Both the position numbers and the translations under genes were made by a program. The notes under the pieces were generated by a model that was given only the letters and a program-made list of their open reading frames with translations, was not told the DNA's origin and searched no databases. Shown here piece after piece: positions 17,000 to 33,828 of a stretch of 35,274 nt of DNA. Source of the DNA: Candidatus Omnitrophota bacterium (GTDB lineage: Bacteria > Omnitrophota > Gorgyraeia > Gygaellales > Profunditerraquicolaceae); NCBI GenBank assembly GCA_029561735.1, contig JAKQWZ010000072.1:1-35274 (forward strand). The letters run 5' to 3'. Within the stretch, counting starts at the first letter, position 1, and each line of letters begins with the position of its first letter.

Positions 17000-17031
17000 G
17001 TGGATGAAAGTGGTGCAAAGTGGAGAGGTGG
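17000..17031 (+). promoter_or_regulatory. MraZ operator: three 10-bp direct repeats (GTGG boxes)
   Basis: GTGGATGAAA (17000-17009), GTGGTGCAAA (17010-17019) and GTGGAGAGG (17020-17028) are phased at exactly 10 bp, and a fourth GTGG at 17028 is out of phase. MraZ proteins are known to bind short direct repeats of this kind upstream of their own gene (TGGGN repeats in E. coli, AAAGTGK-type repeats in Mollicutes). The position downstream of the -10 box and over the ribosome-binding region fits autoregulation. Confidence 0.8.
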
Positions 17032-17036
17032 AAAAA

Positions 17037-17474: not shown

Positions 17475-18393
17475 GCAGGAACGCTTTTTGGATTGTTACG
17501 TGGAAACTAAATTTCATGTACCGGTAATGCCGCAAGAGGTAGTCAAGTATCTTGAACCGGCACCCGGTAAGATAATAGTAGATGCGACAACCGGGACCGG
17601 CGGGCATAGCGAGATTATAGCCGGCCGTATTTATCCCGGCGGCAGGCTGATCTGTATTGACCGCGATGAGGCATCGTTGGCAATCGCGAAGAGCAGGTTA
17701 AGCGCTTATCGCGATTCCGTAGCTTTTGTTCATTCTAATTTTATAGATATTGATAGCGCATTATCCGGGCTGGGGGTTGATAAAATTGACGCAATAGTCT
17801 TTGACCTGGGGATGTCGACTTTTCAGCTTGATGACTCAAGCCGAGGCCTTAGTTTTCAGAAAGAAGGCCCGCTGGATATGCGATTTGATAAATCCGCTTA
17901 TATAAGCGCATATGACCTGGTCAATAATTTGAATGAGGATGAATTATCCCAGGTACTTTGGACATTCGGGCAGGAAAGATGGCATAACCGCATAGCGCAT
18001 CTGGTTGTTGAATCAAGGCATCAGCAGCCGATAACCACTACGCGCCAGTTAAGAGATATAGTTGTCCGGGCGATTCCGGCAAGGTTCAGGCATTTTCGTA
18101 TACATCCGGCGACCCGTACATTTCAGGCAATACGTATAGCAGTGAACCGGGAGCTGGAGGCTGTGGAGGCAGGGCTTAACAAGACTGTCGGGCTGCTTAA
18201 GGAAGGAGGCAGAATTTGCGTAATCTCCTTTCATTCCCTGGAGGACAGGATTGTGAAGTTTCGTTTTAAAGAATTTGCTCAACAGAATAAAATAAGAATT
18301 ATTACTCCTAAGCCTCTGGTCCCTTCACAAGAAGAGATCAGGGCTAATCCGGCATCCAGAAGCGCGAAATTAAGGGTTGCACAACGCATATAA
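17467..18393 (+). CDS. rsmH: 16S rRNA (cytosine1402-N4)-methyltransferase RsmH
   Basis: RsmH (MraW) methylates N4 of C1402 in 16S rRNA with S-adenosylmethionine. The 308 residues show 'HVPVMPQEVV', the SAM-binding 'DATTGTGGHSEII', 'DAIVFDLGMSTFQLDDSSRGLSF', 'PLDMRFD', 'ATRTFQAIRIAVNREL' and 'ISFHSLEDRIVK'. ATG 17467 is used; GTG 17500 would give a start nearer to 'HVPV' but has no ribosome-binding site. Its place right after mraZ is the standard dcw order. It is 1 bp from the ftsL start used here. Confidence 0.95.
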   Translation: MLKQERFLDCYVETKFHVPVMPQEVVKYLEPAPGKIIVDATTGTGGHSEIIAGRIYPGGRLICIDRDEASLAIAKSRLSAYRDSVAFVHSNFIDIDSALSGLGVDKIDAIVFDLGMSTFQLDDSSRGLSFQKEGPLDMRFDKSAYISAYDLVNNLNEDELSQVLWTFGQERWHNRIAHLVVESRHQQPITTTRQLRDIVVRAIPARFRHFRIHPATRTFQAIRIAVNRELEAVEAGLNKTVGLLKEGGRICVISFHSLEDRIVKFRFKEFAQQNKIRIITPKPLVPSQEEIRANPASRSAKLRVAQRI

Positions 18394-18394
18394 A

Positions 18395-18769
18395 ATGAAA
18401 ATGTCTAAGTTTCTGGTTAATATTGTTTTTGTGACTCTTTTCTTTATGCTTTATGCCTGGCAGCAGACCGAAATCTACCGTATGGCTTATATCAACCAGA
18501 AGAACATGTCTATAGCCCAGGAATTGCTTGATAAGAACACCCTGTTAAGATACAATATAGCCAAGAATACTTCGCTTACCCGCATAGGAGTTAAGGTAAG
18601 CACTGATAAAGATTTTCAGATGCCTGACAGGTTCCAGATGCTGACAATGGTTTATCCCAAAGGAGCCCTAAGGCCGAAGGTTGTGGATAATATTTCCGGT
18701 CGTCAGAATGTTTTAGCCCGCCTATTCGGAATCAAAAGACAGGCTGAAGCTATGACCGTTAACCAATAG
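18395..18769 (+). CDS. ftsL: FtsL-like cell division protein
   Basis: The 124-residue protein has a short cytoplasmic N-terminus, one membrane helix (about residues 5-20), and a periplasmic helix rich in heptad-like Leu/Ile ('AQELLDKNTLLRYNIAKN'). This is the shape of FtsL, which bridges FtsB/FtsQ and activates FtsWI. FtsL is poorly conserved, so the call rests on topology and on its position between rsmH and ftsI. ATG 18395 lies 1 bp after the rsmH stop. The longer in-frame TTG start at 18377 overlaps rsmH and is less likely. Confidence 0.8.
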   Translation: MKMSKFLVNIVFVTLFFMLYAWQQTEIYRMAYINQKNMSIAQELLDKNTLLRYNIAKNTSLTRIGVKVSTDKDFQMPDRFQMLTMVYPKGALRPKVVDNISGRQNVLARLFGIKRQAEAMTVNQ

Positions 18770-18797
18770 ATTTACCCCAAAAAAGTCCTCCAAAAAA

Positions 18798-20507
18798 GTG
18801 TATAACACAAGCAACTACCGCCGTAAACTCGAAGCGGTTTTCTTAGTTTTTTTTATCTTTCTGCTTTTATGTATTATCCGCCTCATGTATCTGCAGTTTT
18901 TCCGCGCCAGCTTTCTTGCTAATATAGGCAGAAAACAACATAGCCTTTATGTGGAATTAGAAGCCCGCAGAGGCACTATTTATGATTCTAATCAGAAGCC
19001 CGAAGCGGTCAATATTGCTACTGATTCTGTCTATGCTGCGCCTAATGAAATGAAGGATAAAGATAAAGAGGCTGCTATCCGGCAGCTTTCTCCGATACTC
19101 AATATTAGCGAATCAAATCTGCAAAATAAAATATACCGCAAAAAATCTTTTGTTTGGATCCAGCGCAAAATCTCTGCGCAGCAGGCTCAGCAAATCAGGC
19201 AGCTCAAGATTAAAGGCATAGATTTTATTAAAGAGAGCAAGCGCTGCTACCCTAACGCCTATCTGGCCAGTCAGGTCATTGGTTTTGCCGGATTGGATAA
19301 TCAGGGCCTGGAGGGCCTGGAACTTTATTATGATAAATACCTTAAGGGCAAGAATGGTTTTGCCCTTTTTTTACGCGATGCCCGCCAGAAAAAACTGGAT
19401 TTAAAAGATAAAACACTTGCCCCCCGGGATGGATACGACCTTGAGTTGACCATAGATGAAGTTATACAGTACATTGCAGAAAGGGAGCTGGATAATTCCT
19501 TCCGCGTTAATAAAGCCAAGGGCGCCAGCATTATTGTTATGGAGCCCCATACCGGAGAGATACTGGCAATGGCCAGCCGCCCCACATACGACCTTAATGA
19601 ATATTCTAAAGTTGACAAAGAACAGGTGCGCAACCGTGCCATTTGCGATATGTTTGAGCCGGGTTCAGTTTTCAAGGTGGTTGCTGCCAGCGCCGCGCTG
19701 GAAGAAAAAATGGCCAGCGAGCAGGATAAATTTTTCTGTGAAAATGGGGCGTACAGGGTGGGAAACCATATTTTGCATGACCACACTCCCCACGGATGGC
19801 TTACCTTTACCGAGGTAGTTGAACAATCCAGTAACATCGGCACAACCAAGATAGCCCAATTGATCGGCCCGGATATGCTTTATAAATATGTCAGAAAATT
19901 CGGTTTTGGCACTAAAACCGGAATTGATATGCGCGGAGAAATAAATGGTTCAATCAAAGAGCCGCGCTTTTGGTCAAAGACATCCATCGGCGCTATCCCT
20001 ATAGGCCACGAAGTAGGCGTGACAGCCTTGCAATTGGCTTGCGCTTATTCAGTAATAGCCAACGGCGGAAAACTTATGAAGCCTTATATTGTAAAAAGCA
20101 TCAAAGATAAGTTCGGGCAGGTAATAAAAAGTTTTTCTCCTGTTGTAACGGCCCAGGTTATATCTGCCGATACGTCTGCCAGAATGAGGAAGATACTTAC
20201 CGGGGTAATTGAGGAAGGCACCGGTAAAATGGCCAAAATGGAAGGTTTTAGCGCCGCCGGGAAAACCGGGACTGCGCAGAAGATTGAGCCCGGAGGAAAA
20301 TATTCGCATAACAAATTCATCGGTTCATTTATCGGTTTTGCCCCGGCAGAGGAGCCTTTGATAACAATAGTGGTTACAATTGACGAGCCGCGCCCTTATT
20401 ACTACGGAGGGGTAGTAGCCGCTCCGGTGTTCCAAAAAGTGGCTGCTGATGTTTTAAAATATTTAAGGACCAAACAATTACCGGATGAGTATTATGCCTC
20501 AAATTAG
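18798..20507 (+). CDS. ftsI: Septal peptidoglycan transpeptidase FtsI (penicillin-binding protein 3, class B)
   Basis: FtsI cross-links septal peptidoglycan with its glycosyltransferase partner FtsW. The 569 residues have a membrane anchor at about 13-33, the class B dimerisation domain starting with 'ARRGTIYDSN', and a transpeptidase domain with the three active-site motifs S290-V-F-K293, S344-S345-N346 and K489-T490-G491. There is no PASTA domain. The GTG at 18798 is the first usable start after an in-frame stop at 18753. No Shine-Dalgarno is visible; instead CCAAAAAAGT occurs twice directly before it. The end overlaps murE by 23 bp. Confidence 0.94.
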   Translation: MYNTSNYRRKLEAVFLVFFIFLLLCIIRLMYLQFFRASFLANIGRKQHSLYVELEARRGTIYDSNQKPEAVNIATDSVYAAPNEMKDKDKEAAIRQLSPILNISESNLQNKIYRKKSFVWIQRKISAQQAQQIRQLKIKGIDFIKESKRCYPNAYLASQVIGFAGLDNQGLEGLELYYDKYLKGKNGFALFLRDARQKKLDLKDKTLAPRDGYDLELTIDEVIQYIAERELDNSFRVNKAKGASIIVMEPHTGEILAMASRPTYDLNEYSKVDKEQVRNRAICDMFEPGSVFKVVAASAALEEKMASEQDKFFCENGAYRVGNHILHDHTPHGWLTFTEVVEQSSNIGTTKIAQLIGPDMLYKYVRKFGFGTKTGIDMRGEINGSIKEPRFWSKTSIGAIPIGHEVGVTALQLACAYSVIANGGKLMKPYIVKSIKDKFGQVIKSFSPVVTAQVISADTSARMRKILTGVIEEGTGKMAKMEGFSAAGKTGTAQKIEPGGKYSHNKFIGSFIGFAPAEEPLITIVVTIDEPRPYYYGGVVAAPVFQKVAADVLKYLRTKQLPDEYYASN

Positions 20508-21969
20508 ACTATCAGAGTTATTAAAAGCATTAAGCGCGCCTAAGAAGTGCATTTGTTTTTCTGATCCGGGCATTTACGGTATTAGCTGCAATTCCAGGGA
20601 CATTAAAAAAGGGCAATTATTTGTTGCCGTAAGGGGCAATCAGGCTGACGGGCATGATTATATTCTGGATGCGGTTAAAAGAGGGGCTGTGGCAGTGGTC
20701 AGTGAATTACAAAATGCACAAATGCACCGCTGCCAAAAAATAAATTTAATCAGAGTCGTTGACAGCAGAAGCGCGCTTTTGGAATTAGCAGCCAGATTTT
20801 ATGATAATCCTGCCAAGAGATTGGGGTTTATCGGAATTACCGGGACAAACGGCAAAACCACGGTGGCTTATTTGCTTGAAGCTATTTTGAAGGCGTCCGG
20901 ATATTCTCCTGCTGTTATCGGCACGATAAACTACCGCTATAAGGGCTATAAAGTTGCGGCAGGCAATACTACTCCGGGTGCGTTACAGTTACAATCGCTT
21001 TTTAACCGGTTTGTGAGATCCGGCTGCGATAAGGTAATTATGGAGGTTTCTTCGCATGCGCTGGACCAGGGCAGAGTATGCGGTATTAGTTTTGAAGCGG
21101 CTATTTTTACCAACCTGACTCAGGATCATTTGGATTATCATAAGACAATTCCCGGGTATTTTAAAGCTAAAAGCCTGCTTTTTAAGGAGCTGGGAAAAGA
21201 TTCTATCGCTGTTATCAATAATGATGATTATTACGGCAGAAAGTTGAAAAAAATGACCAAGGCAAAAGTTGTGACTTATGCAATAGACCATCCGGCTGAC
21301 CTGAAAGCAACCGGAATTGATTTTGATATGCATTGCTCCCGGATGAATCTTTCCTGGAAGGGCAGGGAGTTTAAGGCCGTTTCCCGGCTGATAGGCAGGC
21401 ATAATGTCTATAATGTATTGGCTGCGGCCGCGTATTGCCTGCAATCCGGAGTAAGTATTTCCCGGGTAGTCTCGGCAATAGAAAAATTCAGAACAGTCCC
21501 GGGCAGATTAGAGAAAATAAAGTCAAGGCGCAGCTTCACGGTATTTGTGGATTATGCCCACACCGATGATGCGCTTAAAAACGTGATTACTGCGCTTAGG
21601 GCCCTGCCTGCTAATCGGATTATTACCCTGTTTGGCTGCGGCGGAGACCGTGATAAATCTAAAAGGCCGAAAATGGGCAGGGTAGCTACGGATTTGAGTG
21701 ATTATGCGGTTATTACCAGCGATAATCCGCGGCAGGAGAAACCCGCAGATATTATTAAGGATATAGAAAAAGGTATCCGGAAGTCTAATTATTGCGTAGT
21801 GGTTGACAGGAAAGATGCAATTAAAAAAGTATTGTCTTTCGCCCGGGATGGGGATATCATTCTCTTGGCCGGGAAAGGCCATGAAAATTACCAGATAATC
21901 AGAGGCAGAAAACTGCGCTTTGACGACAGAGAGGTTGTAAAAGAATGTTTACAGTCCGCCAGCTTATAG
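20485..21969 (+). CDS. murE: UDP-N-acetylmuramoyl-L-alanyl-D-glutamate-2,6-diaminopimelate ligase
   Basis: MurE adds the third residue of the peptidoglycan stem peptide in the cytosol. Three Mur-ligase domains are present. The ATP loop is 'GITGTNGKTTVAY' with Lys124. Further motifs are 'VMEVSSHALDQGRV', 'LTQDHLDYH', 'DYAHTDDALK' and 'GCGGDRDKSKRP'. The D413-N-P-R416 motif marks meso-diaminopimelate as substrate rather than lysine, so the wall is probably of the DAP type. Length 494 is normal. ATG 20494 is an alternative start, three codons in. The start overlaps ftsI and the end overlaps murF by 25 bp. Confidence 0.95.
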   Translation: MSIMPQIRLSELLKALSAPKKCICFSDPGIYGISCNSRDIKKGQLFVAVRGNQADGHDYILDAVKRGAVAVVSELQNAQMHRCQKINLIRVVDSRSALLELAARFYDNPAKRLGFIGITGTNGKTTVAYLLEAILKASGYSPAVIGTINYRYKGYKVAAGNTTPGALQLQSLFNRFVRSGCDKVIMEVSSHALDQGRVCGISFEAAIFTNLTQDHLDYHKTIPGYFKAKSLLFKELGKDSIAVINNDDYYGRKLKKMTKAKVVTYAIDHPADLKATGIDFDMHCSRMNLSWKGREFKAVSRLIGRHNVYNVLAAAAYCLQSGVSISRVVSAIEKFRTVPGRLEKIKSRRSFTVFVDYAHTDDALKNVITALRALPANRIITLFGCGGDRDKSKRPKMGRVATDLSDYAVITSDNPRQEKPADIIKDIEKGIRKSNYCVVVDRKDAIKKVLSFARDGDIILLAGKGHENYQIIRGRKLRFDDREVVKECLQSASL

Positions 21970-23333
21970 AAGCAAGTTCCGCTGACCTGGTGCAGGGGGA
22001 TGCGCAAAAACGGGTCAAGGGTATTTGTATTGATTCGCGCAGGGCCAATCCCGGAGATTGTTTTATTGCCATAAAGGGCAGCAGTTTTGACGGGCATGAT
22101 TTTATCGCTCAAGCAATTAAAAATGGCGCTTCTTGCGCAATTGTGTCTATTCCCAATCCAAAGCTCCTAAGCTCTAACCCAAAATATAAAAGAATATCTA
22201 TTTTAAATGTAGACGACACAATCAGGGCTCTGGGTAAGATTGCCGCGTTCCATCGCCAGAGGTTTTCTATCCCCGTTATAGCTGTTACCGGCAGCAACGG
22301 GAAAACCACCACTAAGGAAATGCTGGCCCATGTGTTATCGGCAAAAATGCGCGTGCTGCGGACCGAAGGGACTAAAAACAATAATATAGGAGTGCCTTTG
22401 ACCCTGCTGAATCTTAAAAGTACCCATGATATTGCGGTGGTGGAATTAGGCACAAATCATTTCGGAGAGATTGAATATTTATCCGGAATCTGCCGGCCTA
22501 ATATGGCGGTGATTACAAATATAGCTGCTTCGCATCTTGAATTCCTTAGAGATTTAAACGGTGTGTTTACCGAAAAAACAAGCCTGTTGCGTTTGTTGCA
22601 GAAGCCGGCCATTGCAATACTTAATGCCGACGATAAGTTTTTATATAAATTGATAAGCGGAAGAAAACACAGGCATACCGCAGTATCTTTCGGCGTAAGG
22701 AGCCGGGCGGATTTCAGGGGTTCGGCAATAGAATTAAGAGGCGAAGAAAGCAGATTTCTGCTAAACTTTAAGCATAGGTTTATGCTTAAGAATTGCGGGC
22801 AGCACAATATCCACAATGCCCTTTCAGCTATAGCTGTCGCCAGGATCTTTGGGCTGTCGCATAAAGATATTATATCAAAGCTTGCCTCTTTTAAATTTCC
22901 CGCGGGAAGGTGCAGTATGGCAAAATTCGGCGGCCTGCGGCTGATTGATGATACCTACAACTCCAATCCGTTCTCTCTCGAGCATGCCCTTTATGCCTTG
23001 GCTAATATTAAGGTAAAGGGGAGAAGGATATTTGTTATGGGGGATATGCTGGAATTAGGCCCGGACAGAGAATCTTTGCACGGTAAGGCAGGCAGGCTGG
23101 CAGCAAAGATCTGCGACACCCTTATTGCTGTAGGGCCGTTATCCGGGAAAGCGCTCAGGGAAGCAAAAAAATCAGGGATGAAAGAAAAAGACCTGTTTAG
23201 TTGCGCTGATTCCGGACAGGCCGGAAAAATACTTATTGGGAAAATACAGCCGTGCTCCCAAGATGCAGTTCTGGTCAAAGGTTCCCGCGCAATGAAGATG
23301 GAAGAAATAATCAATAACCTTAAACAAAAATAA
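21945..23333 (+). CDS. murF: UDP-N-acetylmuramoyl-tripeptide-D-alanyl-D-alanine ligase
   Basis: MurF adds the D-Ala-D-Ala dipeptide, supplied by Ddl (30056), to the MurE product. The 462 residues show the N-terminal 'CIDSRRANPGDCFIAIKG', the ATP loop 'VTGSNGKTTTKEML' with Lys120, 'EGTKNNNIGVP', 'VELGTNHFGEIEYL', 'NIHNALSAIAVA' and 'DDTYNSNPFS'. Length and domain order are standard. It overlaps murE by 25 bp and is followed by mraY after 1 bp. Confidence 0.95.
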   Translation: MFTVRQLIEASSADLVQGDAQKRVKGICIDSRRANPGDCFIAIKGSSFDGHDFIAQAIKNGASCAIVSIPNPKLLSSNPKYKRISILNVDDTIRALGKIAAFHRQRFSIPVIAVTGSNGKTTTKEMLAHVLSAKMRVLRTEGTKNNNIGVPLTLLNLKSTHDIAVVELGTNHFGEIEYLSGICRPNMAVITNIAASHLEFLRDLNGVFTEKTSLLRLLQKPAIAILNADDKFLYKLISGRKHRHTAVSFGVRSRADFRGSAIELRGEESRFLLNFKHRFMLKNCGQHNIHNALSAIAVARIFGLSHKDIISKLASFKFPAGRCSMAKFGGLRLIDDTYNSNPFSLEHALYALANIKVKGRRIFVMGDMLELGPDRESLHGKAGRLAAKICDTLIAVGPLSGKALREAKKSGMKEKDLFSCADSGQAGKILIGKIQPCSQDAVLVKGSRAMKMEEIINNLKQK

Positions 23334-23334
23334 T

Positions 23335-24423
23335 ATGTTCTATCATTTTTTATACCCTTTGCATGAAATCTTTGCATCGCTGAATATCTTCCGCTATATT
23401 ACTTTCAGGGCGGTGATGGCCGCGCTTACTGCTTTTGTGCTGAGCCTTATATTCGGGCCTTTAGTTATCCGTATGCTTAAAAAATGGAAGATCGGCGAGA
23501 ATGTCAAAAAAGAAGAGAGCGGCAAGCTTTATGAGTTGATCAGCAGTAAGCAGGATACCCCGACAATGGGCGGCATATTTATACTGTTGGCAATAGTAAT
23601 TTCAACTTTGCTCTGGGCCGATGTAACAAATAAATTTATCCTGCTGGCTTTATTCTGCACCATCTGGCTGGGCATTACCGGTTTTATTGACGATTATATC
23701 AAGTTGACCAGAAAAAAGTCCAAGGGCCTTACAGCTACGGCGAAATTCAGCAGTCAGATTTTGCTCGGGTTGATTTTAGGTACTATTCTCTACTTGTATT
23801 CGGATAACAGTTCAGCCATAGACGTGCCTTTTTTAAAAAATGTTACTTTGAACCTGGGTATATTTTATATTCTCTTTGTGGTTTTAGTAATCGCCGGGAC
23901 ATCTAATGCGGTAAATCTTACTGACGGCCTTGACGGGCTGGCAATAGGCAGCGTAATAATGGTAGCCGTACCGTTTAGCATCTTAAGCTATGTCAGCGGG
24001 CATATAAAATTCAGTGATTATCTGCTTATCCCTTATATCAGGGGGGCGGGGGAATTGACTGTATTTTGCGCCAGCATTCTCGGAGCAGGTTTAGGCTTTT
24101 TATGGTTTAATTGTTATCCTGCGTCCATATTTATGGGCGATGTGGGATCGCTGGCCCTTGGCGGGGCTTTAGGCACAGTAGCTTTATTAATAAGAAAAGA
24201 GCTGCTGCTGGTGATAGTCGGAGGTATATTTGTTGCCGAAGCGCTTTCAGTGATATTACAGGTATTTTCTTTTAAATTCTTTAAGAAGCGTATATTCCAA
24301 TGTTCGCCGCTGCATCATCATTTTCAGTTTCTAGGTTGGAAGGAAAATAAGATAATTGTAAGATTCTGGATCATAGCGGCATTGCTTGCCCTCTTTACCC
24401 TGGCAACATTAAAAATCCGGTGA
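23335..24423 (+). CDS. mraY: Phospho-N-acetylmuramoyl-pentapeptide transferase
   Basis: MraY moves phospho-MurNAc-pentapeptide onto undecaprenyl phosphate to form lipid I. The 362-residue polytopic membrane protein has about ten hydrophobic helices and the family motifs 'DTPTMGGIFIL', 'GFIDDYIKLTRKKSKGL', 'NLTDGLDGLA', 'FMGDVGSLALGG' and the His-rich 'CSPLHHHFQFLGW'. The catalytic aspartates are present. The stop overlaps the murD GTG start by 4 bp (GTGA). Confidence 0.96.
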   Translation: MFYHFLYPLHEIFASLNIFRYITFRAVMAALTAFVLSLIFGPLVIRMLKKWKIGENVKKEESGKLYELISSKQDTPTMGGIFILLAIVISTLLWADVTNKFILLALFCTIWLGITGFIDDYIKLTRKKSKGLTATAKFSSQILLGLILGTILYLYSDNSSAIDVPFLKNVTLNLGIFYILFVVLVIAGTSNAVNLTDGLDGLAIGSVIMVAVPFSILSYVSGHIKFSDYLLIPYIRGAGELTVFCASILGAGLGFLWFNCYPASIFMGDVGSLALGGALGTVALLIRKELLLVIVGGIFVAEALSVILQVFSFKFFKKRIFQCSPLHHHFQFLGWKENKIIVRFWIIAALLALFTLATLKIR

Positions 24424-25682
24424 AAAATCAAGAATTTTTTAAAAATAAAACAATTACGGTAGTCGGTTTAGCCCGTTCGGGAGTGGCCTGCGCGAATCTT
24501 CTTCATTCTTTAGGCTCCAAGGTCAGCGTTACCGACAGTAATGATAATCCGGAGACCAGAGAAGCCGCGAAAAGGCTGATTTCCCGCGATATTCCGGTTG
24601 AGCTGGGTAAACACAGCCGGAAATTTTTTGAAAACAGGGATTTTATAGTTGTTTCTCCGGGGGTCGCTGCGAAAAGCCAGCCGATTACCTGGGCCGGAGA
24701 ATCAGGTATCCCGGTTTTAAGCGAAATAGAAGTTGCCTGGTCTTTATGCCCGGGGACGGTAATTGCAATTACCGGTTCGGGGGGAAAGACTACTGTTACT
24801 ACCCTGATTGGTAATGTTATCCGGGCTTCAGGTAAAAAGGCTTTTATTTGCGGAAATATCGGGAATCCTTTTTCAGGTGAAGTGGAAAATATAGGCCCGG
24901 AAGATTTTGTTTCTCTTGAGGTAAGCTCGTTTCAGCTTGAAAATATTATCCGCTTTAAGCCGCATATTGCAGTAATATTGAATTTTAACCGCAATCATCT
25001 TGACCGGCATGCGGATATGCAGGAATATCTCAATGCGAAAAAACGCATCTTTGCAAATCAGGATTCCGGTGATTTTCTTGTGCTTAATGCAAATGATACG
25101 GCTTTAAAGGATTTAGGCGGGCAAGCACGATCAAAGACCGTATTTTTCAAGGCTTCTGTTGAGTTTAATCCTAACCAGCAGGCTGTTCTGGCTGTGGCTT
25201 CAATTTTAGGTATTGAAAAAAAAGTGTGTAACCGAGTGCTCAGCGAGTTTGAAGGCTTAGAGCACCGCATGGAATTTGTAGCTCAGGTTAAAGGGGTCAG
25301 ATTTATTAATGATTCTAAAGCTACGCTTGGCGAATCAACCGTATGGGCTATAAATAATATATCTTCTCCTATAATACTTATTGCCGGAGGAAAAGACAAA
25401 GGCGTTGATTACTCTTTGATATCCGGGCCCGGAAAAGGCAAGATAAAAGAGGTAATTGTTATCGGCCAGGCCGCAAATACCATTAAAGGCGCCTTAAGAA
25501 AAAGTTTTAAAATAGAAGAGGCTGGCAATTTACAGGAAGCGGTAATGCTGGCATTTAATAAATCCAGCCCGGGAGATAGTGTCCTGCTTTCTCCTATGTG
25601 TTCAAGTTTTGATATGTTTGCAAATTACGAGGAAAGAGGCAGGGTTTTTAAACAGGCAGTGAAGGATTTATATGGCCCGTAA
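24420..25682 (+). CDS. murD: UDP-N-acetylmuramoyl-L-alanine-D-glutamate ligase
   Basis: MurD adds D-glutamate to UDP-MurNAc-L-Ala. The 420 residues show an N-terminal Rossmann-like 'VVGLARSGVACANLL', 'VVSPGV', the ATP loop 'ITGSGGKTTVTTLIG' with Lys123 (more often GTNGKTT or GTKGKTT), 'LEVSSFQLE', 'NFNRNHLDRH', 'NDSKATLGEST' and 'LLSPMCSSFDMFANYEERG'. GTG start, GTGA overlap with mraY. The end overlaps ftsW by 11 bp. Confidence 0.95.
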   Translation: MKNQEFFKNKTITVVGLARSGVACANLLHSLGSKVSVTDSNDNPETREAAKRLISRDIPVELGKHSRKFFENRDFIVVSPGVAAKSQPITWAGESGIPVLSEIEVAWSLCPGTVIAITGSGGKTTVTTLIGNVIRASGKKAFICGNIGNPFSGEVENIGPEDFVSLEVSSFQLENIIRFKPHIAVILNFNRNHLDRHADMQEYLNAKKRIFANQDSGDFLVLNANDTALKDLGGQARSKTVFFKASVEFNPNQQAVLAVASILGIEKKVCNRVLSEFEGLEHRMEFVAQVKGVRFINDSKATLGESTVWAINNISSPIILIAGGKDKGVDYSLISGPGKGKIKEVIVIGQAANTIKGALRKSFKIEEAGNLQEAVMLAFNKSSPGDSVLLSPMCSSFDMFANYEERGRVFKQAVKDLYGP

Positions 25683-26766
25683 CACTAGAATTGATCTTTT
25701 TGCAACTTCGGTTATCTTGATCTGCATAGGGCTGGTAATGATCTATAGCTCTTCCAGTATCTATGCCTGGGAGAGGTATAAGGATAGCTTTTTCTTTTTT
25801 AAAAGGCATTTTAGTTTCATGGTTATAGGCGCGGCCATAACGTTTTTTATAATGGGCATGGATTATAAAAACCTGCGCCGCTGGGCCAAACCCCTGCTGA
25901 TAATTTCTTTTATATTGCTTTTGCTTGTGCTTGTCCCCGGGCTGGGAAGAGAAGTATCCGGAGCGCGCAGGTGGTTCAGGTTCAAAATGTTCAGTTTTCA
26001 ACCGTCCGAATTTGCTACACTGGCAGTCTTGATATATGTAGCTGATTTTATTGCCAGAAAGGGAAGCCAGATAAAATCATTTTTCCGCGGGTTTTTACCG
26101 CCTATGCTGGCGCTTGGCGGAATTGTTCTCCTGATACTTATGCAGCCGGATTTGGGGACATCGCTGGCGTTGGTTATTGTAGTCACAATTATGCTTTTTA
26201 TTGCCGGAGTGCGTCCTATGTATATCTTTTCTATGATTCTGGCCAGCCTTCCGGCATTGTATGTGCTGGTGTTCAGTGTCCCTTATAGAAGGATGCGTAT
26301 TCTAGCTTTTTTAAATCCCTGGCTTGATCCCAGGGGGATAGGTTTTCAAATAATCCAGTCGCAGATAGCTTTGGGTTCAGGAGGCTTATTCGGAGTAGGC
26401 CTGGGCCAGTCCAAGCAAAAGTTATTTTATTTGCCTGCGGCGCATACTGATTTTATTTTTTCTATCATCGGGGAAGAACTGGGACTTTTAGGGACAATGG
26501 GGGTGATAGTCCTTTTTATAGTTTTTATACACTTAGGCCTGAAAATAATCAAGAACGCGCCTAATACCTTCAGTTATTTCTTGAGCCTTGGCCTGGTCCT
26601 GATGATAACGCTTAAAGCCGCCATAAATATAGGGGTTTCCTGCGCGCTTTTGCCGACCAAAGGGCTGCCTTTGCCGTTTATTAGTTACGGAGGATCGTCT
26701 TTTATATTTGATATGGTTTGTTTGGGGATATTGCTGAATATCGCGCGCACAGGAGAATACCCGTGA
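25672..26766 (+). CDS. ftsW: Septal peptidoglycan glycosyltransferase FtsW (SEDS family)
   Basis: FtsW polymerises lipid II at the septum together with FtsI. The 364 residues form about ten membrane helices. SEDS motifs are 'VSGARRWFRFKMFSFQPSEFA', 'LMQPDLGTSLAL', 'GFQIIQSQIALGSGGLFGVGLGQSKQKLFYLP', 'HTDFIFSIIGEELGLLG' and 'LPLPFISYGGSS'. Position between murD and murG is the classical place for ftsW rather than rodA. The stop overlaps the murG start as GTGA. Confidence 0.95.
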   Translation: MARNTRIDLFATSVILICIGLVMIYSSSSIYAWERYKDSFFFFKRHFSFMVIGAAITFFIMGMDYKNLRRWAKPLLIISFILLLLVLVPGLGREVSGARRWFRFKMFSFQPSEFATLAVLIYVADFIARKGSQIKSFFRGFLPPMLALGGIVLLILMQPDLGTSLALVIVVTIMLFIAGVRPMYIFSMILASLPALYVLVFSVPYRRMRILAFLNPWLDPRGIGFQIIQSQIALGSGGLFGVGLGQSKQKLFYLPAAHTDFIFSIIGEELGLLGTMGVIVLFIVFIHLGLKIIKNAPNTFSYFLSLGLVLMITLKAAINIGVSCALLPTKGLPLPFISYGGSSFIFDMVCLGILLNIARTGEYP

Positions 26767-27854
26767 AAATATTAGTCGCTTCAGGCTCTAGCGGCGGGCA
26801 TATTTTTCCTGCTATGAGCCTGCTGGATAATTTAAATAATGAATCCGGAATTGAGACTATTCTGGTAATCCCCAGCTCTTCAAGGCGTAATAACATTGAA
26901 ACAGCAGGTTATAATGTTGTTTTTATCAGCGTTGAGAATATCGGGATTAAGCCTGTCTGGCGTCTTTTTACTTCCGTTTTTAATTTCATGAAAGGCACCC
27001 TGCAAAGCCTGATTATCCTCGCCGGATTCCGTCCTGATGCTGTTGTTTGTTTTGGCGGCATATCCTGTGTGCCGGTTCTGCTTTGGGCCTGGCTTTTTAG
27101 GATTAGGACAATGATCCATGAGCAGAATGTGATACCCGGCAGGGCTAACCGGTTTCTGGCCGCCTTTGCAGATAAGATAGCGGTATCATTTCCGCAGAGT
27201 ATCAGCCGGTTTAGGTCTAACAGGGATAAGATAGTTGTTACCGGCAATCCTTTGCGCAGAAGCATCGTGAATGTCTCGCGGGAAAAGGCGTTAGATTTTT
27301 TCGGGTTCAGCCCGGAAAAGTTCACTGTTTCTGCAATGGGTGGCAGCCTGGGCTCAGGTAGGATCAACCAAGAGTTTTCCAAGGCTATAACGATCAGCAG
27401 CTATAGGCAGAGATTGCAGGCAATACACCTTTGCGGCAAGTCTGATTATGATATTCTAAAAAAACGTTATACCGAGGTCGGATCGGATACCAAGTTGTTT
27501 AAGTTCCTGAATTCTATGCATTATCTCTACAGCGCAAGCGACCTGGTTATCTGCCGCGCAGGCGCTACTACGATTTCGGAACTGATATATTTCAAAATCC
27601 CGGCAATTATAATACCTTATCCGTATGCTTACCGGCATCAATTTAACAACGCCCTGATTTTACAAAAAGCAGGGGCTGCGGTTATTGTTGAGGAAGATGA
27701 ACTAAGCGCGGATATTTTAAGGCAGATGATTGAGGATTGCGTAAATGACCCGCAGCGTTTATTATCAATGCGGGCAGCTTATTCTAAAATTGGCGTTTCC
27801 GACAAGGGAGAGCTGTTAGCCAAAGAGGTATTGAAAGAATTATCATGCAGATGA
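26763..27854 (+). CDS. murG: UDP-N-acetylglucosamine-N-acetylmuramyl-(pentapeptide) pyrophosphoryl-undecaprenol GlcNAc transferase
   Basis: MurG converts lipid I to lipid II at the inner face of the membrane. I use GTG 26763, preceded by AGGAG (26751-26755) and overlapping the ftsW stop by 4 bp; this gives 363 residues starting 'KILVASGSSGGHIFPAMSL'. An in-frame ATG at 26718 lies inside ftsW. GT-B fold motifs are the glycine loop above, 'HEQNVIPGRANR', 'GGSLGSGRIN', 'CRAGATTISELIYFKIPAIIIPYPYA' and 'HQFNNA'. The third glycine loop reads GGSLGS where GGSxGA is usual. Confidence 0.95.
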   Translation: MKILVASGSSGGHIFPAMSLLDNLNNESGIETILVIPSSSRRNNIETAGYNVVFISVENIGIKPVWRLFTSVFNFMKGTLQSLIILAGFRPDAVVCFGGISCVPVLLWAWLFRIRTMIHEQNVIPGRANRFLAAFADKIAVSFPQSISRFRSNRDKIVVTGNPLRRSIVNVSREKALDFFGFSPEKFTVSAMGGSLGSGRINQEFSKAITISSYRQRLQAIHLCGKSDYDILKKRYTEVGSDTKLFKFLNSMHYLYSASDLVICRAGATTISELIYFKIPAIIIPYPYAYRHQFNNALILQKAGAAVIVEEDELSADILRQMIEDCVNDPQRLLSMRAAYSKIGVSDKGELLAKEVLKELSCR

Positions 27855-29212
27855 ACAAGCGGGTGCATTTGATCGGGATAGGCGGAATAGGGATGAGCGC
27901 CATTGCGCATTTATTGCTGAAGCAGGGGGTTAAGGTCAGCGGCTCAGACGTTAAGTCCAGCAGGATTATTGATGGGCTTAAGAGCGCCGGCGCCAATATT
28001 TTTATCGGCCACGAAGCTTCAAATGTAAACGGTTCTGATGTGGTGGTTTATTCTTCGGCGATAAAGGCGGATAATCCGGAATATGCGAGGGCTAAAGAAT
28101 CCGGGGCTATTCTTGTCAGGCGGGCGCAGGCGTTAGCCGAGCTGATGCAGGACAGGGTTGTTATTGCGGTTGCCGGAAGCCACGGCAAGACAACCACATC
28201 ATCGTTATGCTCTTTGATGCTTATAGACGCCGGATTGCGCCCTACAATTGCTGTGGGCGGCATACTTAAAAATATCGCCGCGAATGTTTATTTTGGCGAC
28301 GGAGATTACTTTGTGGCCGAAGCCGATGAATCAGACGGGTCATTCCTTGATTATAAGCCGACCTATTCCATAATCACTAATATTGATCATGAGCACCTTG
28401 ATTATTACGGAGATTTTAAAAGCGAGGTAAAAGCTTTTGGCGCTTTTATCAACAATACCCTTGAACAAGGATGTGTTTTTTATTGCGCTGATGACTTAGT
28501 TTTGCGGGATTTGCTCAAAAACAGCAGTAAGAGAAAAATAATGTTTGGCTTAAAGGATTATGCTGATATCTATCCGGTAAATATCAGGACTCAGGGCTTG
28601 AGTAGCGAATTTGACGTATTTTACCGGAATAAATTTATTGACACCTTCAATCTTTCTTTAGGCGGCGAACATAATATTTCCAATGCGCTTGCGGCCATTG
28701 CTTTGGGGCTTGAATTGGATATTGATACAGGCTCGATAAAAAATACCCTTTTGAATTTTAAGGGTGCAGGCAGGAGGCTGGAAATCAAATTTAACGATAA
28801 TGACTTCATGCTCTTGGATGATTATGCGCATCACCCCACTGAAATAAAGGCGAGCCTCGGGGCCTTGAAAAATCTGGGCAGAAAGAGGATCATCGCGGTA
28901 TTCCAGCCGCACCGCTATTCGCGGACTCAGAATCTTTTGGATGAATTTGCCTCTTGTTTTGCCCATGCGGATTATCTGATCCTGACCGATATATATCCGG
29001 CAGGAGAGCCGGTAATCCCCGGGGTGGATGCACAGCTTTTGTTTGAACGGGTGAAAAAATATGCCCCATCCAAAAAAGTTGTCTATTTGCCCAAAGAAGA
29101 TATTATTGCGCATATTCTTAAAATAAGGCAGCCGCATGACTTGGCGGTTACGCTTGGCGCAGGAGACATATCAAGGATATCCGATGAATTGGCCCAAAGA
29201 ATTAAACAATAA
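27845..29212 (+). CDS. murC: UDP-N-acetylmuramate-L-alanine ligase
   Basis: MurC adds L-Ala to UDP-MurNAc, the first peptide step. The 455 residues show 'HLIGIGGIGMSAIAHLLL', 'GSDVKSSRI', the ATP loop 'AGSHGKTTTSSL' with Lys115, 'EADESDGSFL', 'NIDHEHLDYYG' and 'LDDYAHHPTEI'. A second ATG at 27851 gives an ATGA overlap with the murG stop and is an equally good start. The end overlaps murB by 29 bp. The murC-murB-ddl order supplies the early and dipeptide steps together. Confidence 0.95.
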   Translation: MQMNKRVHLIGIGGIGMSAIAHLLLKQGVKVSGSDVKSSRIIDGLKSAGANIFIGHEASNVNGSDVVVYSSAIKADNPEYARAKESGAILVRRAQALAELMQDRVVIAVAGSHGKTTTSSLCSLMLIDAGLRPTIAVGGILKNIAANVYFGDGDYFVAEADESDGSFLDYKPTYSIITNIDHEHLDYYGDFKSEVKAFGAFINNTLEQGCVFYCADDLVLRDLLKNSSKRKIMFGLKDYADIYPVNIRTQGLSSEFDVFYRNKFIDTFNLSLGGEHNISNALAAIALGLELDIDTGSIKNTLLNFKGAGRRLEIKFNDNDFMLLDDYAHHPTEIKASLGALKNLGRKRIIAVFQPHRYSRTQNLLDEFASCFAHADYLILTDIYPAGEPVIPGVDAQLLFERVKKYAPSKKVVYLPKEDIIAHILKIRQPHDLAVTLGAGDISRISDELAQRIKQ

Positions 29213-30065
29213 GATAAAAAAAACAGAATCCCTTAGCAAGTATACAACTTTTAGGTCCGGAGGCAAGGCTGCTTTCTTCGCCTTTCCGGGAAGTGCGGGG
29301 CAATTAAAGTTGTTGGTATGTACAGCTAAGAAAAATAAACTGCCGATAAGGATTATCGGGGCTGGCAGTAATATTTTGGCTGCGGACAGGCTTAAACGGT
29401 CAATGGTTATTAAATTATCAGCTCCTGAATTTACCGGGATTGCATTCCGGGGCAATAGAGTTTACGTTGGCGCAGCTGTGGCATTGCCGCGAGTACTAAA
29501 AATATGCTGTGATAAGGGGTTGGGAGGCTTAGAATTTCTTTCCGGGATACCTGCTACTGTTGGCGGGGCGCTGGTGATGAATGCCGGGGCCTGGGGCCGG
29601 AATATATCGAATTTAGTTGAACGGGCCAAAGTAATGGATTATAATGGCAAAATTCGCCACCTTAGCCGCAGGGCAATAAATTTTTCATATCGCGGTTCCG
29701 GTTTAAGCAGGTACATTGTTTTAGAGTGCATTTTAATGCTTAATAGAAAAAGCCGGAAGAGCATTAAAGATAAAATACGAGGTTATCTTTTAAGGCGCAG
29801 GAAAACGCAGGACTTATCCAATCCCAGCGCCGGGTGTATTTTTAAGAATCCTAAAGATTATCCTGCAGGCATGCTTATAGAGGCCTGCGGCCTTAAAGGC
29901 CTTGCGTTCGGGGGCGCTGCAGTCTCACAAACACACGCAAATTTTATAATCAATAAAAATAAAGCAAGCTCATCTGATATTATTAAATTAATGGGATTCA
30001 TCCGCAGGGAAGTCAAAAAGAAGACAGGGATTCAGCTTGAGCCGGAAATAAAAATATGGGATTAG
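29184..30065 (+). CDS. murB: UDP-N-acetylenolpyruvoylglucosamine reductase
   Basis: MurB reduces UDP-GlcNAc-enolpyruvate to UDP-MurNAc with FAD and NADPH, tying wall synthesis to the flavin genes of this window. ATG 29184 with AAGG (29173-29176) in front gives 293 residues; the longer frame from 29136 lies wholly inside murC. FAD-domain motifs are 'TTFRSGG', 'GAGSNILA', 'GLEFLSGIPATVGGALVMNAGA' and 'SYRGSGL'. 'PSAGCIFKNP' has Cys218 where many MurB proteins have the proton-donating Ser. The compact C-terminus suggests the short type II form. The end overlaps ddl by 10 bp. Confidence 0.94.
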   Translation: MNWPKELNNKIKKTESLSKYTTFRSGGKAAFFAFPGSAGQLKLLVCTAKKNKLPIRIIGAGSNILAADRLKRSMVIKLSAPEFTGIAFRGNRVYVGAAVALPRVLKICCDKGLGGLEFLSGIPATVGGALVMNAGAWGRNISNLVERAKVMDYNGKIRHLSRRAINFSYRGSGLSRYIVLECILMLNRKSRKSIKDKIRGYLLRRRKTQDLSNPSAGCIFKNPKDYPAGMLIEACGLKGLAFGGAAVSQTHANFIINKNKASSSDIIKLMGFIRREVKKKTGIQLEPEIKIWD

Positions 30066-31012
30066 ATAAAAAGGCGCAAAAAGGTAAATTCGGCAGGATA
30101 GGCGTGCTTATGGGCGGTCCGTCCAGCGAAAGGGATGTATCGCTTAAGTCAGGTATGGCAGTTTTAGAGAACTTGAGCAGGCTCGGGCTTGACGTAACAG
30201 CGATTGATATCAAGACGGATTGTTATGAAGATAATACGCGTTTATTAAAGTCTCATGCTATAGATTGCGCTTTTATAGCATTGCATGGTAAATTCGGCGA
30301 GGACGGCGGGATACAAGAAGTACTGGATGGCCTCAGGATTCCCTATACAGGATCCGGCGTATCAGCCAGCAGGCTGGCTATGGATAAGGCGGCCTCGCGT
30401 AAGATATTTCAGATATACGGCTTAACTATCCCGGACTATGAAATTTTAAATAAATTTTTCTATAATAAGAATAAGTATAAACGCTACAGGTTTAATTATC
30501 CGTTAGTAGTCAAGCCGGCTGCAAATGGTTCAAGTATCGGTTTATCTATCGTTGAAAAGCCATCTTTGCTGGATAAAGCAATTGATCTGGCTTTTGCCTA
30601 TGACGATAATATTATTATTGAGGAATATATTAAGGGTCGGGAATTAACCGTGGCTATTCTTGACGATAGGGCTTTGCCGGTTATAGAAATAGTCCCCAAA
30701 AGAAAGTTTTTTGATTATCAGGCAAAGTATAAATACGGGTTGACTGAATACCTGGTGCCTGCGCCTTTGCCTGCGCCCATCAAGAAAAAAGTACAATTAT
30801 GCGCGCTTAAGGCGCATAGGCTTTTGGGGTGCTTTGGTTGTTCCCGCGTTGATTTTATGCTGGATTGTAAGTCCCGCGTGTATATCTTAGAGGTGAATAC
30901 AATACCCGGTTTGACGCAAACCAGCCTTTTGCCAAAAGCTGCATCTAAAACGGGGATAGATTTTTCCCGGCTTTGCCTTAAACTGGTGGGTTTGGCTTAT
31001 GAGAAAAATTAA
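30056..31012 (+). CDS. ddl: D-alanine-D-alanine ligase
   Basis: Ddl makes the D-Ala-D-Ala dipeptide used by MurF. The 318-residue ATP-grasp protein shows 'GVLMGGPSSERDVSLKSG', 'ALHGKFGEDGGIQ', 'PYTGSGVSASRLAMDK', 'VVKPAANGSSIGL', 'IIEEYIKGRELTVAIL' and 'LEVNTIPGLTQTSLLPKAA'. The metal-binding Glu and Asn of 'EVNT' are present. Ligases that use D-lactate for resistance usually differ in the omega loop; here the 'KYKYGLTEYLVPAPL' region looks like a standard Ddl. It overlaps murB by 10 bp and ftsQ by 14 bp. Confidence 0.95.
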   Translation: MGLDKKAQKGKFGRIGVLMGGPSSERDVSLKSGMAVLENLSRLGLDVTAIDIKTDCYEDNTRLLKSHAIDCAFIALHGKFGEDGGIQEVLDGLRIPYTGSGVSASRLAMDKAASRKIFQIYGLTIPDYEILNKFFYNKNKYKRYRFNYPLVVKPAANGSSIGLSIVEKPSLLDKAIDLAFAYDDNIIIEEYIKGRELTVAILDDRALPVIEIVPKRKFFDYQAKYKYGLTEYLVPAPLPAPIKKKVQLCALKAHRLLGCFGCSRVDFMLDCKSRVYILEVNTIPGLTQTSLLPKAASKTGIDFSRLCLKLVGLAYEKN

Positions 31013-31805
31013 AAAAGAATTTCGCCTGCCCCCGGCAGGGCTTATAATATTTGCGGTTGTTTCAGCGTTAATTCTGCTGTCTGTAGTATTGTTCTTCAGC
31101 AACCTGAAAAATCTAAGCATTTTTACTATCAGAGAAATTACGGTTAAGCAGGGTGCGGCAATTGACCTGGCTTATCTAAAAGGTAAAAATTTATTCAGTA
31201 TTGACCTTGCCCGGGAATCCCAGAATGCCCGGCGCAGATACCCGGTATATAAAAGAATACGTTTGATCAGGATTTTGCCTGACCGGGTCTATGTTGATTT
31301 TGTAAAACGCCGGCCAGTGGCACTGGTTAAATTAAATACAAAGTATTACAGCGTAGACGAAGATGCCATGCTTTTTGATGCCGGGAGTGTTTTAAATGCC
31401 AATGATCCGGCATGGCAGACCCTGCCGGTTATGTTGGGGCTAGATTCAAAAATTCCTAATCCCCGGCCAGCCGTCAGGTATTATCTGCCGGAATTGGGCT
31501 TTGGCCTGAAAATTATCAGTGAAGCAGAGAAGAATAAAGGGTTTAGAGACTTCCGGATAGTATCGCTGGATCTGTCGGTACCGGGCAATACGCTCATGTT
31601 CCTGACTTTGCCATCGCTTGCTAACGCAGGAATAGTAGAGGTCAAATTGGGTAATGAGCAAATAATTTCCCGGTTAAGGATATTAGAAGGGCTGCTTTAT
31701 CAATTTAAGAAAGACTGGAACAGTATTAAATATATAGATCTAAGGTTTAAAGAACCGGCTATAAAATTCATTGATATATCTAAGATCGGAAAAGGGGCCA
31801 GGTAA
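30999..31805 (+). CDS. ftsQ: Cell division protein FtsQ/DivIB
   Basis: FtsQ is a single-pass membrane protein that scaffolds FtsB/FtsL at the septum. The 268 residues have a basic cytoplasmic N-terminus, one membrane helix at about 13-32, and a POTRA domain: 'IFTIREITVKQGAAIDLAYLKGKNLFSIDL' and 'RIRLIRILPDRVYVDFVKRRPVALV'. A FtsQ/DivIB beta domain follows. Position between ddl and ftsA is the classical dcw order. It overlaps ddl by 14 bp and is 4 bp before the ftsA start. Confidence 0.92.
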   Translation: MRKIKKEFRLPPAGLIIFAVVSALILLSVVLFFSNLKNLSIFTIREITVKQGAAIDLAYLKGKNLFSIDLARESQNARRRYPVYKRIRLIRILPDRVYVDFVKRRPVALVKLNTKYYSVDEDAMLFDAGSVLNANDPAWQTLPVMLGLDSKIPNPRPAVRYYLPELGFGLKIISEAEKNKGFRDFRIVSLDLSVPGNTLMFLTLPSLANAGIVEVKLGNEQIISRLRILEGLLYQFKKDWNSIKYIDLRFKEPAIKFIDISKIGKGAR

Positions 31806-31809
31806 GAAA

Positions 31810-33069
31810 ATGATATTTAATAATTATATCTGTGCGGTTGATATAGGCTCAAGCAAGATATCCGCTGTATGCGCCAAGGTCAGCGGCAGGAAGATTGTTG
31901 AGCTGTTCTTTGAAAATGCCCCTTCCAAAGGGGTAAGACAGGGCGTGGTGATAAACTCTATTGACCTGGTGTCCTGTTTAAGCAGGGTATTATCAGGGCT
32001 AAAACGCAAATCCGGCATTAATATCAAATACGTCTATACAAACCTTTCCGGAAGCGAGGTAGCGGCTAAGCATAGCCATGCGATTATGCCTTTAGCAGAG
32101 CGCGGCAATAAGGTAATCAGCCCTTATGATATCCAGCAAATTGTAGAGCAGGCGCGTGTATTAGGCTCTAGCCTTGAAGAAGAGATTATCCATCAGATGC
32201 CCGCTTCTTTTTCAATAGATTCCAAAAGCAATATACTCAGCCCCGTCGGGCTTTACAGCCACAGGCTGGAGGTGGACCTTTATCTTATTTACGGCAAGCT
32301 TTCAGCCATCCAGAGCCTGACTCGGGTAGTCAATCAGGCAGGATACGAAATAAAAGACCTTTATTTTTCCGGCGTGGCAACCGCTGCCTGTATCTTTAAT
32401 AAGGAGAACAGGCAGGGGATAAACGTATTATGCGATATAGGAAGCGATATTACCGAACTGGTCATTTTTAAAGACGGCCTTATAAAAGCAATAGAGATAT
32501 TGCCGATAGGCGGAAATTTTCTTACCCAGCATCTGGCGGACGAGTTAAAGATCCCCTTTGAGCTGGCCGAAGACCTGAAAAAATCGCATGCCTCTATCGG
32601 TGATTCCGGTAATATTCCCGAGGATAAAGAAATACTTATTAAGAAAAATAATGTCTATAAACCGATCAAACAGAAGCTGGTTGCCGAAATCGTGACGGCT
32701 AAAGCTAAAGAGATCTGCGAGCAGGTTAAGGCTGCCCTTGATAAAAATATATCCGTAAACGACGCGGTGCATAATTTCTCCTGTTGCGGCAGGATAGTTT
32801 TTGTAGAAGGCTTCTTAGAAACAATGGAAAATGTTCTTGGTATTTCGGTGCGATTAGCCAGGATAAATAATCCTCTGCTTAGCGCGTTTAATAATAAGTC
32901 GGAGGAATTATCCGGGCAAAAATACCTGGATTATCTTACTGCTTTAGGGGTTATTTGCCAGGCCCTGCTTGATGAACAGCCGCATATCTTATCTTCCGGA
33001 CAACCCGCAAAAAATCCGCTTAAAAAATTTGCAGTCAGGCTTAAAGAAGTCTATAGGGAATACTTTTAA
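31810..33069 (+). CDS. ftsA: Cell division protein FtsA, with degenerate nucleotide-binding motifs
   Basis: FtsA is the actin-like anchor that tethers FtsZ filaments to the membrane. ATG 31810 gives 419 residues. The N-terminal 'AVDIGSSKISAVCAKV' is phosphate motif 1, and the 1C domain follows with 'GVRQGVVINSID' and 'HQMPASFSID'. The C-terminus 'LKKFAVRLKEVYREYF' is a good amphipathic membrane-targeting helix. Phosphate motif 2 reads D209-I-G-S-D-I-T where D-I-G-G-G-T is usual. The adenosine-motif region reads 'SCCGRIVFVEG' (324-334) where a Gly-rich LTGGG-type turn is expected. ATP binding may be altered. No ftsZ follows; a promoter for unrelated genes starts at once. Confidence 0.9.
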   Translation: MIFNNYICAVDIGSSKISAVCAKVSGRKIVELFFENAPSKGVRQGVVINSIDLVSCLSRVLSGLKRKSGINIKYVYTNLSGSEVAAKHSHAIMPLAERGNKVISPYDIQQIVEQARVLGSSLEEEIIHQMPASFSIDSKSNILSPVGLYSHRLEVDLYLIYGKLSAIQSLTRVVNQAGYEIKDLYFSGVATAACIFNKENRQGINVLCDIGSDITELVIFKDGLIKAIEILPIGGNFLTQHLADELKIPFELAEDLKKSHASIGDSGNIPEDKEILIKKNNVYKPIKQKLVAEIVTAKAKEICEQVKAALDKNISVNDAVHNFSCCGRIVFVEGFLETMENVLGISVRLARINNPLLSAFNNKSEELSGQKYLDYLTALGVICQALLDEQPHILSSGQPAKNPLKKFAVRLKEVYREYF

Positions 33070-33097
33070 TTGACCCGCGTTTTTGCAGGTGTATAAT
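33070..33097 (+). promoter_or_regulatory. Promoter of the yggS-proC-mtnP unit
   Basis: TTGACC (33070-33075) and consensus TATAAT (33092-33097) with a 16-bp spacer lie directly behind the ftsA stop codon. The predicted start is near 33104, followed by GAGGA (33115-33119) and the yggS GTG at 33130. It marks the end of the dcw operon. Confidence 0.75.
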
Positions 33098-33129
33098 ATA
33101 AAATAAATTTCGACGAGGATCGGGTTTAA

Positions 33130-33828
33130 GTGATAAGGGAAAATATTATTGAAATTAGGGAGAGGATAGTTAAGGCTTGTGCAGCCTCTGGCAGGAGTAG
33201 TTCCGAAGTAACTTTAATAGCCATAACTAAGAACAGGCAGCCAGAAGAGGTCCTTAAAGCTATTGAAAACGGCGTTACGGATATCGGAGAAAACCGTGTG
33301 CAGGAGGCCATGCGCAAATTCAGCGGTTTACAGCAAGTAATAAACGATAAGCAGATTAAGCGGCACTTTGTCGGGCATTTGCAGACTAATAAGATAAAGG
33401 AGGCTTTAAGATTGTTTGATCTGATTCATTCCGTGGACAGCGTTAAACTTGCTGCAGAGATAGATAGGCAGGCACAAAGAATGTCTCAATCGCAGGACAT
33501 TCTTGTGCAAATTAATACTTCATTTGAAGAAAGTAAGTCGGGATTTACGCCTCAGGATGCAATTGAAGCGGTATTAGAAATTGCTAAATTTAAGAATATA
33601 AAAATTAGGGGGCTGATGACTATGGCGCCCGTGGTTAAAAACCCGCAGGAGGCTGGAGTATTTTTTAAAAATTTAAGGGATATACGCGATAAAATAAACA
33701 GTTTGGCCCTTACCCCTTACCCTATAACCCATTTATCCATGGGCATGAGCGATGATTTTGAAATAGCTGTCCAGGAAGGGTCAACAATGGTCAGGTTAGG
33801 CAGGGCAGTATTCGGAGAGCAGCTATGA
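33130..33828 (+). CDS. yggS: Pyridoxal-phosphate homeostasis protein (YggS/PROSC family)
   Basis: This PLP-binding barrel protein buffers PLP and affects amino acid balance; no catalytic activity is firmly known. The 232 residues show the PLP lysine Lys34 in 'AITKNRQ', then 'DIGENRVQEA', 'HFVGHLQTNKIK', 'IHSVDS', 'NTSFEESKSGF', 'GLMTMAP' and 'LSMGMSDDFEIAVQEGSTMVRLGRAVFG'. GTG start at 33130, about 10 nt after GAGGA. It overlaps proC by 4 bp; yggS next to proC is a common pair. In many genomes yggS also follows ftsZ, so ftsZ may have been lost or moved from just before it. Confidence 0.94.
   Translation: MIRENIIEIRERIVKACAASGRSSSEVTLIAITKNRQPEEVLKAIENGVTDIGENRVQEAMRKFSGLQQVINDKQIKRHFVGHLQTNKIKEALRLFDLIHSVDSVKLAAEIDRQAQRMSQSQDILVQINTSFEESKSGFTPQDAIEAVLEIAKFKNIKIRGLMTMAPVVKNPQEAGVFFKNLRDIRDKINSLALTPYPITHLSMGMSDDFEIAVQEGSTMVRLGRAVFGEQL

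Follow-up and report, generated by a model that had tools for sequence, protein, structure and literature searches.

A dcw cluster that ends at ftsA without ftsZ in Omnitrophota, a PVC phylum that appears to lack FtsZ and to retain FtsA in nearly all genomes

FtsZ is the ring protein used for division by almost all bacteria, and FtsA is its membrane anchor. Among the described systems closest to the one reported here, Chlamydiae have no FtsZ and retain MreB, FtsK and most dcw genes (PMC12283558, PMC7029139), and Planctopirus limnophila, a PVC relative that is likewise without ftsZ, still has its dcw genes largely present; it is without ftsA, ftsB and alr, and ftsK is the sole essential gene among the dcw genes listed for it (PMC12283558, Table 1). 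FtsA has been lost in Chlamydiae, and Planctomycetes and Chlamydiae are the only phyla that the relevant part of Pende et al. 2021 names as also being without FtsA and SepF (PMC8178401). An FtsZ-bearing arrangement is represented by the clusters of Verrucomicrobium spinosum and E. coli, which have the order ftsQ-ftsA, with ddl upstream in V. spinosum (PMC12283558, Table 1). Methanopyri are another group in which the context of FtsA is unusual; there it occurs alongside SepF and was probably acquired by transfer (PMC8178401).

The standing of Omnitrophota in this respect is contradictory in print. The legend of Fig. 5 in Pende et al. 2021 places Omnitrophica among the FtsZ-less phyla (PMC8178401), whereas a 2017 review counts them as FtsZ-bearing (PMC5945725), and a 2025 study of V. 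spinosum groups Omnitrophota with the FtsZ-bearing phyla in which the dcw cluster is strongly conserved (PMC12283558). Rivas-Marin 2016 took the FtsZ of Omnitrophica from one genome, OLB16, and left undecided whether the absence of FtsZ from two other Omnitrophica genomes was real (PMC5147048); OLB16 (NCBI taxid 1617433) now stands under Ca. Hinthialibacterota in the NCBI taxonomy. Thus, the loss of FtsZ in Omnitrophota is known from one printed line of 2021 that is contradicted elsewhere, and the present result bears on this conflict between the 2016 review, the 2021 legend and the 2025 study. As for a retained and re-tuned FtsA, no description of an FtsA that persists without FtsZ in this phylum was found among the open-licence literature, and the main text of PMC10066038 contains neither FtsA nor MreB as a term. 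The retention of FtsA over deep evolutionary time without FtsZ would represent a natural experiment on the role of FtsA itself, a question sharpened by the MreB-like double filaments that FtsA can form (PMC7613929).

The window, which is the whole stretch of 35,274 nucleotides analysed here, belongs to a genome of Omnitrophota, which is a PVC phylum; the initial annotation had raised the possibility of a PVC relative, in which the loss of FtsZ would be plausible, and this placement proved correct. The features concerned are as follows.

17004..24423, + strand, mraZ, rsmH, ftsL-like ORF, ftsI-type PBP, murE, murF and mraY
18377-18769, + strand, ftsL-like ORF, named by position and size, with no match in Pfam
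24420..30065, + strand, block of murD, ftsW, murG, murC and murB, by profile matches
25672..26766, + strand, ftsW (TIGR02614, 413 bits)
30056..31012, + strand, ddl, by profile matches
30999..31805, + strand, ftsQ (Pfam FtsQ_DivIB_C)
31810..33069, + strand, ftsA, 419 amino acids, ATG start (TIGR01174; Pfam FtsA and SHS2_FTSA)
33070..33129, + strand, gap between ftsA and yggS, the ftsZ slot of other bacteria, by sequence and promoter scan
33130-33828, + strand, yggS (TIGR00044)
33825-34661, + strand, proC, by profile matches

These include a dcw cluster of 15 genes on the + strand in the order mraZ, rsmH, ftsL-like, ftsI, murE, murF, mraY, murD, ftsW, murG, murC, murB, ddl, ftsQ and ftsA, so that the cluster ends with ddl-ftsQ-ftsA and without ftsZ. 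The near-textbook order of the 15 genes claimed in the initial annotation was supported by profiles, except that the names ftsL-like and ftsI are softer, the ftsI protein matching the SpoVD/PBP2/FtsI-type models strongly yet falling under the curated cut-off of each. The end of the cluster was also as claimed there: the stop codon of ftsA lies at 33067-33069, a promoter-like TTGACC-N16-TATAAT with 11 of 12 consensus bases follows at 33070-33097, starting at the base directly after ftsA, and yggS begins at 33130, leaving a gap of 60 bases in which ftsZ cannot fit. When four relatives were aligned, the promoter-like site was found again in two (L040 and L043) and was absent from the other two (L004 and L005).

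The absence of ftsZ at this position is informative, because an FtsZ match lies immediately 3' of ftsA in 14/14 control loci of FtsZ-bearing bacteria, in 8 of which the gene there is also annotated as ftsZ. In relatives, tblastn with three FtsZs as queries matched none of 22 long Omnitrophota stretches that carry ftsA. In these stretches, yggS was present within 450 bases downstream of ftsA in 11 and farther downstream in two (L038 and L041), a proC match was present downstream in another two (L047 and, weakly at 20 bits, L037), and neither yggS nor proC was close to ftsA in the remaining 7. On the upstream side, ddl-ftsQ precedes ftsA in 21/22; no separate ftsQ was drawn in the exception, L053, for which a second search gave an overlapping ftsQ match.

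A gene that is missing from its usual slot could be located elsewhere or be missing only through incomplete metagenome assemblies, and the genome of the window gives this explanation some ground, being 82% complete and also lacking a match to FtsK. The Tubulin/FtsZ profile found nothing in this genome; this absence alone is weak evidence because of that incompleteness, and the pattern across the phylum has to decide. With the same profile, 0/58 genomes (the window's own and 57 relatives) matched, and across the phylum a match was obtained in 2/384 genomes and in 1/249 of high quality, whereas 13/14 control genomes matched in the same search. The FtsZ equivalog profile TIGR00065 gave 0/97 genomes, the window's own being again negative, and 0/72 among the high-quality ones; the negatives include the single-contig genomes G127 and G129, which do yield matches to MreB and FtsA. 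A normal ftsZ elsewhere, by which the case would have been reduced to a simple relocation, was thus looked for and not found in the window's own genome, among the 58 genomes or, apart from the two matches treated below, among the 384. Relocation and assembly gaps are accordingly largely rejected for the phylum and retain only a very slight probability. Of the two alternatives left by the initial annotation, relocated or missing, the profile searches indicate that ftsZ is missing, not moved, in Omnitrophota, and in the printed conflict these sequence data support the FtsZ-less listing of 2021.

The two matching genomes, G318 and G238, were inspected individually. G318 has a strong FtsZ match (L001) on a contig of 3.7 kb, adjoining an FKBP-like gene, and, judged by eye, it looks like a contaminant. 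In addition, G318 (L003, G318:C77) and G238 (L002, G238:C10), which belong to two Omnitrophota families, carry one divergent copy each of the tubulin superfamily. These proteins are 420-427 aa long with a lysine-rich N-terminal tail, score only 42-50 bits and are similar to TubZ (PF22453), with the cut-off passed by the G238 protein only; from their sequences, they look like rare TubZ-like proteins. Their existence as divergent members leaves some room for the explanation that the role of FtsZ is filled by a tubulin-like protein too diverged for profiles. The profile did detect both of them, however, and the G238 protein as a query against 285 genomes returned, besides its own sequence, a single weak match (G133, E 7e-4), G318 being absent from these results presumably because it was not among the 285 genomes drawn. 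Moreover, the 22 stretches share no uniform ORF downstream of ftsA, and the likely docking residues of FtsA are also lost, as described below. A hidden tubulin of this kind is quite unlikely.

FtsA itself is retained. The FtsA of the window scores 200.6 bits against TIGR01174, over the equivalog cut-off of 175.85, has the SHS2 (1C) domain (PF02491, 53 bits vs 25.4) and is 54% identical to FtsA of two Omnitrophica/Omnitrophota MAGs. TIGR01174 matched 383/384 genomes at E<=0.001, of which 223 were over the curated cut-off; the count of 383 is an upper bound, since the FtsA profile built in this analysis also picks up MreB loci and one weaker match to that profile in G127 falls on its MreB gene. 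Three families with weak FtsA profile scores (f38, f34 and f11) contributed 22 loci with a divergent FtsA, near which an ftsQ match was present in 21/22 and a ddl match in 20/22, and all the divergent FtsAs of f38 and f34 terminate in EYF or DYF. Furthermore, a profile specific to f38 recovered FtsA in the single-contig genome G282. FtsA is not fully universal, because a full-length FtsA was found by neither profile in G173, G185, G196 and G215. Taken together, these matches indicate that Omnitrophota keep FtsA in nearly all genomes.

This retention separates Omnitrophota from the systems introduced above. The parallel with Chlamydiae and Planctomycetes that was originally drawn for this locus is valid for the loss of FtsZ and fails for FtsA, which those phyla have lost (PMC8178401); as to the features of the FtsZ-less PVC type, FtsZ is absent and MreB is present in Omnitrophota, while FtsA, which is also lost in that type, is kept. 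P. limnophila likewise is without ftsA, whereas Omnitrophota have it in the dcw cluster, and the clusters of V. spinosum and E. coli differ from that of Omnitrophota, in which ftsZ is absent and the residues of FtsA likely to face FtsZ are altered.

An FtsA without FtsZ might be a relic or have its role elsewhere, for example in the assembly of type IV pili, with division carried out by MreB and FtsK alone. Weak scores of FtsA against PilM models are in line with this, as is the position of ATPases of type II/IV secretion (PilT-like by Pfam) directly 3' of ftsA in two loci (L049:6025-7131 and L050:8481-9593). The protein of the window is over the FtsA equivalog cut-off and has kept the SHS2 (1C) domain, however, and ftsA of the relatives stays beside ftsQ, which points to division. 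We therefore regard a relic or a pilus protein as improbable.

The sequence changes in FtsA were evaluated in an alignment of 94 Omnitrophota FtsAs, consisting of high-scoring matches and synteny loci (L121 and L147 were dropped because their genomes were already represented), with 14 FtsZ-bearing controls from four phyla, none of which was PVC. Among the 38 columns that are conserved in the controls (>=85%), the steepest falls were at E. coli D242, from 14/14 to 5/94, and R300, from 14/14 to 8/94, and the two residues together were kept in 1/94 Omnitrophota FtsAs vs 14/14 controls. The column of E303 fell from 13/14 to 29/94, and those of L334 and T335 dropped to 15/94 and 27/94. The FtsA of the window has H241 at the position of D242 and K298 at that of R300, so that these residues of the docking region are not kept. 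We take D242 and R300 to contact FtsZ, in or beside the docking subdomain 2B, the borders of which are likewise assumed. Subdomain 2B of FtsA binds FtsZ (PMC4281207, PMC5256927), and an arginine of FtsZ makes a salt bridge to 2B (PMC5256927); for contacts between individual residues, the two open-licence papers found offer statements at the level of the subdomain. The suggestion made in passing in the initial annotation, that an altered FtsA would fit a changed partnership with FtsZ, is supported by the steep fall of these columns, given their presumed placement at the docking site. Part of this divergence may nevertheless reflect drift within the lineage, since the controls include no PVC member and changes also occur in columns that are not known to contact FtsZ, namely those of L334 and T335 and the column at E. 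coli A174, which is Cys in 12/14 controls and mostly Ala in Omnitrophota, with Cys in 5/94, and is thereby as low as that of D242.

Other parts of FtsA were retained. The glycines G16, G212 and G336, which we assign to nucleotide motifs, were present in 87/94, 91/94 and 94/94, and the C-terminal membrane helix ends in E/D-Y-F in 84/94. The FtsA of the window retains the motifs DIGSSK and DIGSD, and its C-terminal amphipathic helix ends in EYF. Over the final 15 residues, the hydrophobic moment was 0.54 for the window, with a group mean of 0.48, compared with 0.47 in the controls and 0.26 in shuffles, and 47% of the Omnitrophota FtsAs were above the 95th percentile of the shuffles. For this FtsA, AlphaFold gave a model of low quality (pLDDT 40.5), on which none of the readings relies.

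With nucleotide-motif glycines and membrane helix kept in most of the 94 proteins, the part that FtsZ plays in organising septal wall synthesis might have passed to FtsA filaments rather than to MreB, and the actin FtsA can indeed form MreB-like membrane double filaments (PMC7613929). This explanation has to accommodate family f38, in which FtsA is retained despite the loss of its phosphate motifs: the phosphate-1 glycine is gone in 11/11 aligned proteins and the phosphate-2 aspartate in 10/11, with C-termini of YxEYF in 10/11 and YKDYF in one. With these motifs lost, the f38 FtsA probably does not form ATP-driven filaments, and MreB, which is over its cut-off in 134/145 genomes, is therefore placed as the likely main filament. 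The replacement of FtsZ by FtsA filaments is thus possible but rather unlikely. The f38 proteins, encoded at L075, L079, L083-L085, L088-L092 and L096, are apparent pseudo-actins adjoining ftsQ.

A match to MreB was obtained in 142/145 genomes, including all 115 of high quality (weakly in G185 and G120), and none in the other 3. FtsK was matched in 56/58 genomes, including all 49 of high quality (weakly in G105). MinC and ZapA act on FtsZ, and neither was found in 117 Omnitrophota genomes (0/117 each); this absence lends weak support to the loss of FtsZ, because few controls carry them (MinC in only 6/14 and ZapA in only 4/14 control genomes).

From these sequence comparisons, we consider it reasonably probable that ftsZ was lost before the radiation of Omnitrophota and that FtsA persisted as a hub at the membrane that no longer depends on FtsZ, the main filament probably being MreB; division in Omnitrophota would then probably occur by a different, actin-based arrangement. 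The loss is dated before the radiation because the absence is near phylum-wide. In the proposed course, ftsZ would have been lost from the slot after ftsA while the remaining dcw cluster was retained, and FtsA would have survived its partner, adjoining ftsQ and retaining the membrane helix and, in the majority of the aligned proteins, the nucleotide motifs, with the loss of conserved charged residues in or beside subdomain 2B, to which we ascribe the docking of FtsZ. FtsA could then act as an actin-like hub, bound to the membrane, which brings together FtsQ, FtsW and FtsI; MreB, as the main cytoskeletal filament, may set the division site by analogy with Chlamydia; and FtsK may couple division to the chromosome. 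A more far-reaching proposal is an FtsA-centred, tubulin-free divisome throughout the phylum, in which FtsA with MreB organises septal wall synthesis and the f38 FtsA serves as a scaffold without phosphate motifs. This proposal is tentative and open to considerable doubt; if it is true, Omnitrophota would represent a present-day intermediate that links division by FtsZ with the division of Planctomycetes and Chlamydiae, in which both FtsZ and FtsA are missing.

With respect to the genes next to ftsA, yggS and proC are found downstream of it not only in the window but also in many other Omnitrophota. ORFs of 338-370 aa that lie downstream of ftsA in some families were considered as hidden FtsZs and rejected, being proteins of other types. 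Judged by eye from the sequence, that of L046 is a repeat protein and that of L052 an HD-GYP response regulator, the next gene in L052 being an ATPase of the PilT-like kind confirmed by Pfam. The PilT-like ATPases of L049 and L050, which come from two Omnitrophota genomes outside the class of the window, stand where ftsZ formerly lay.
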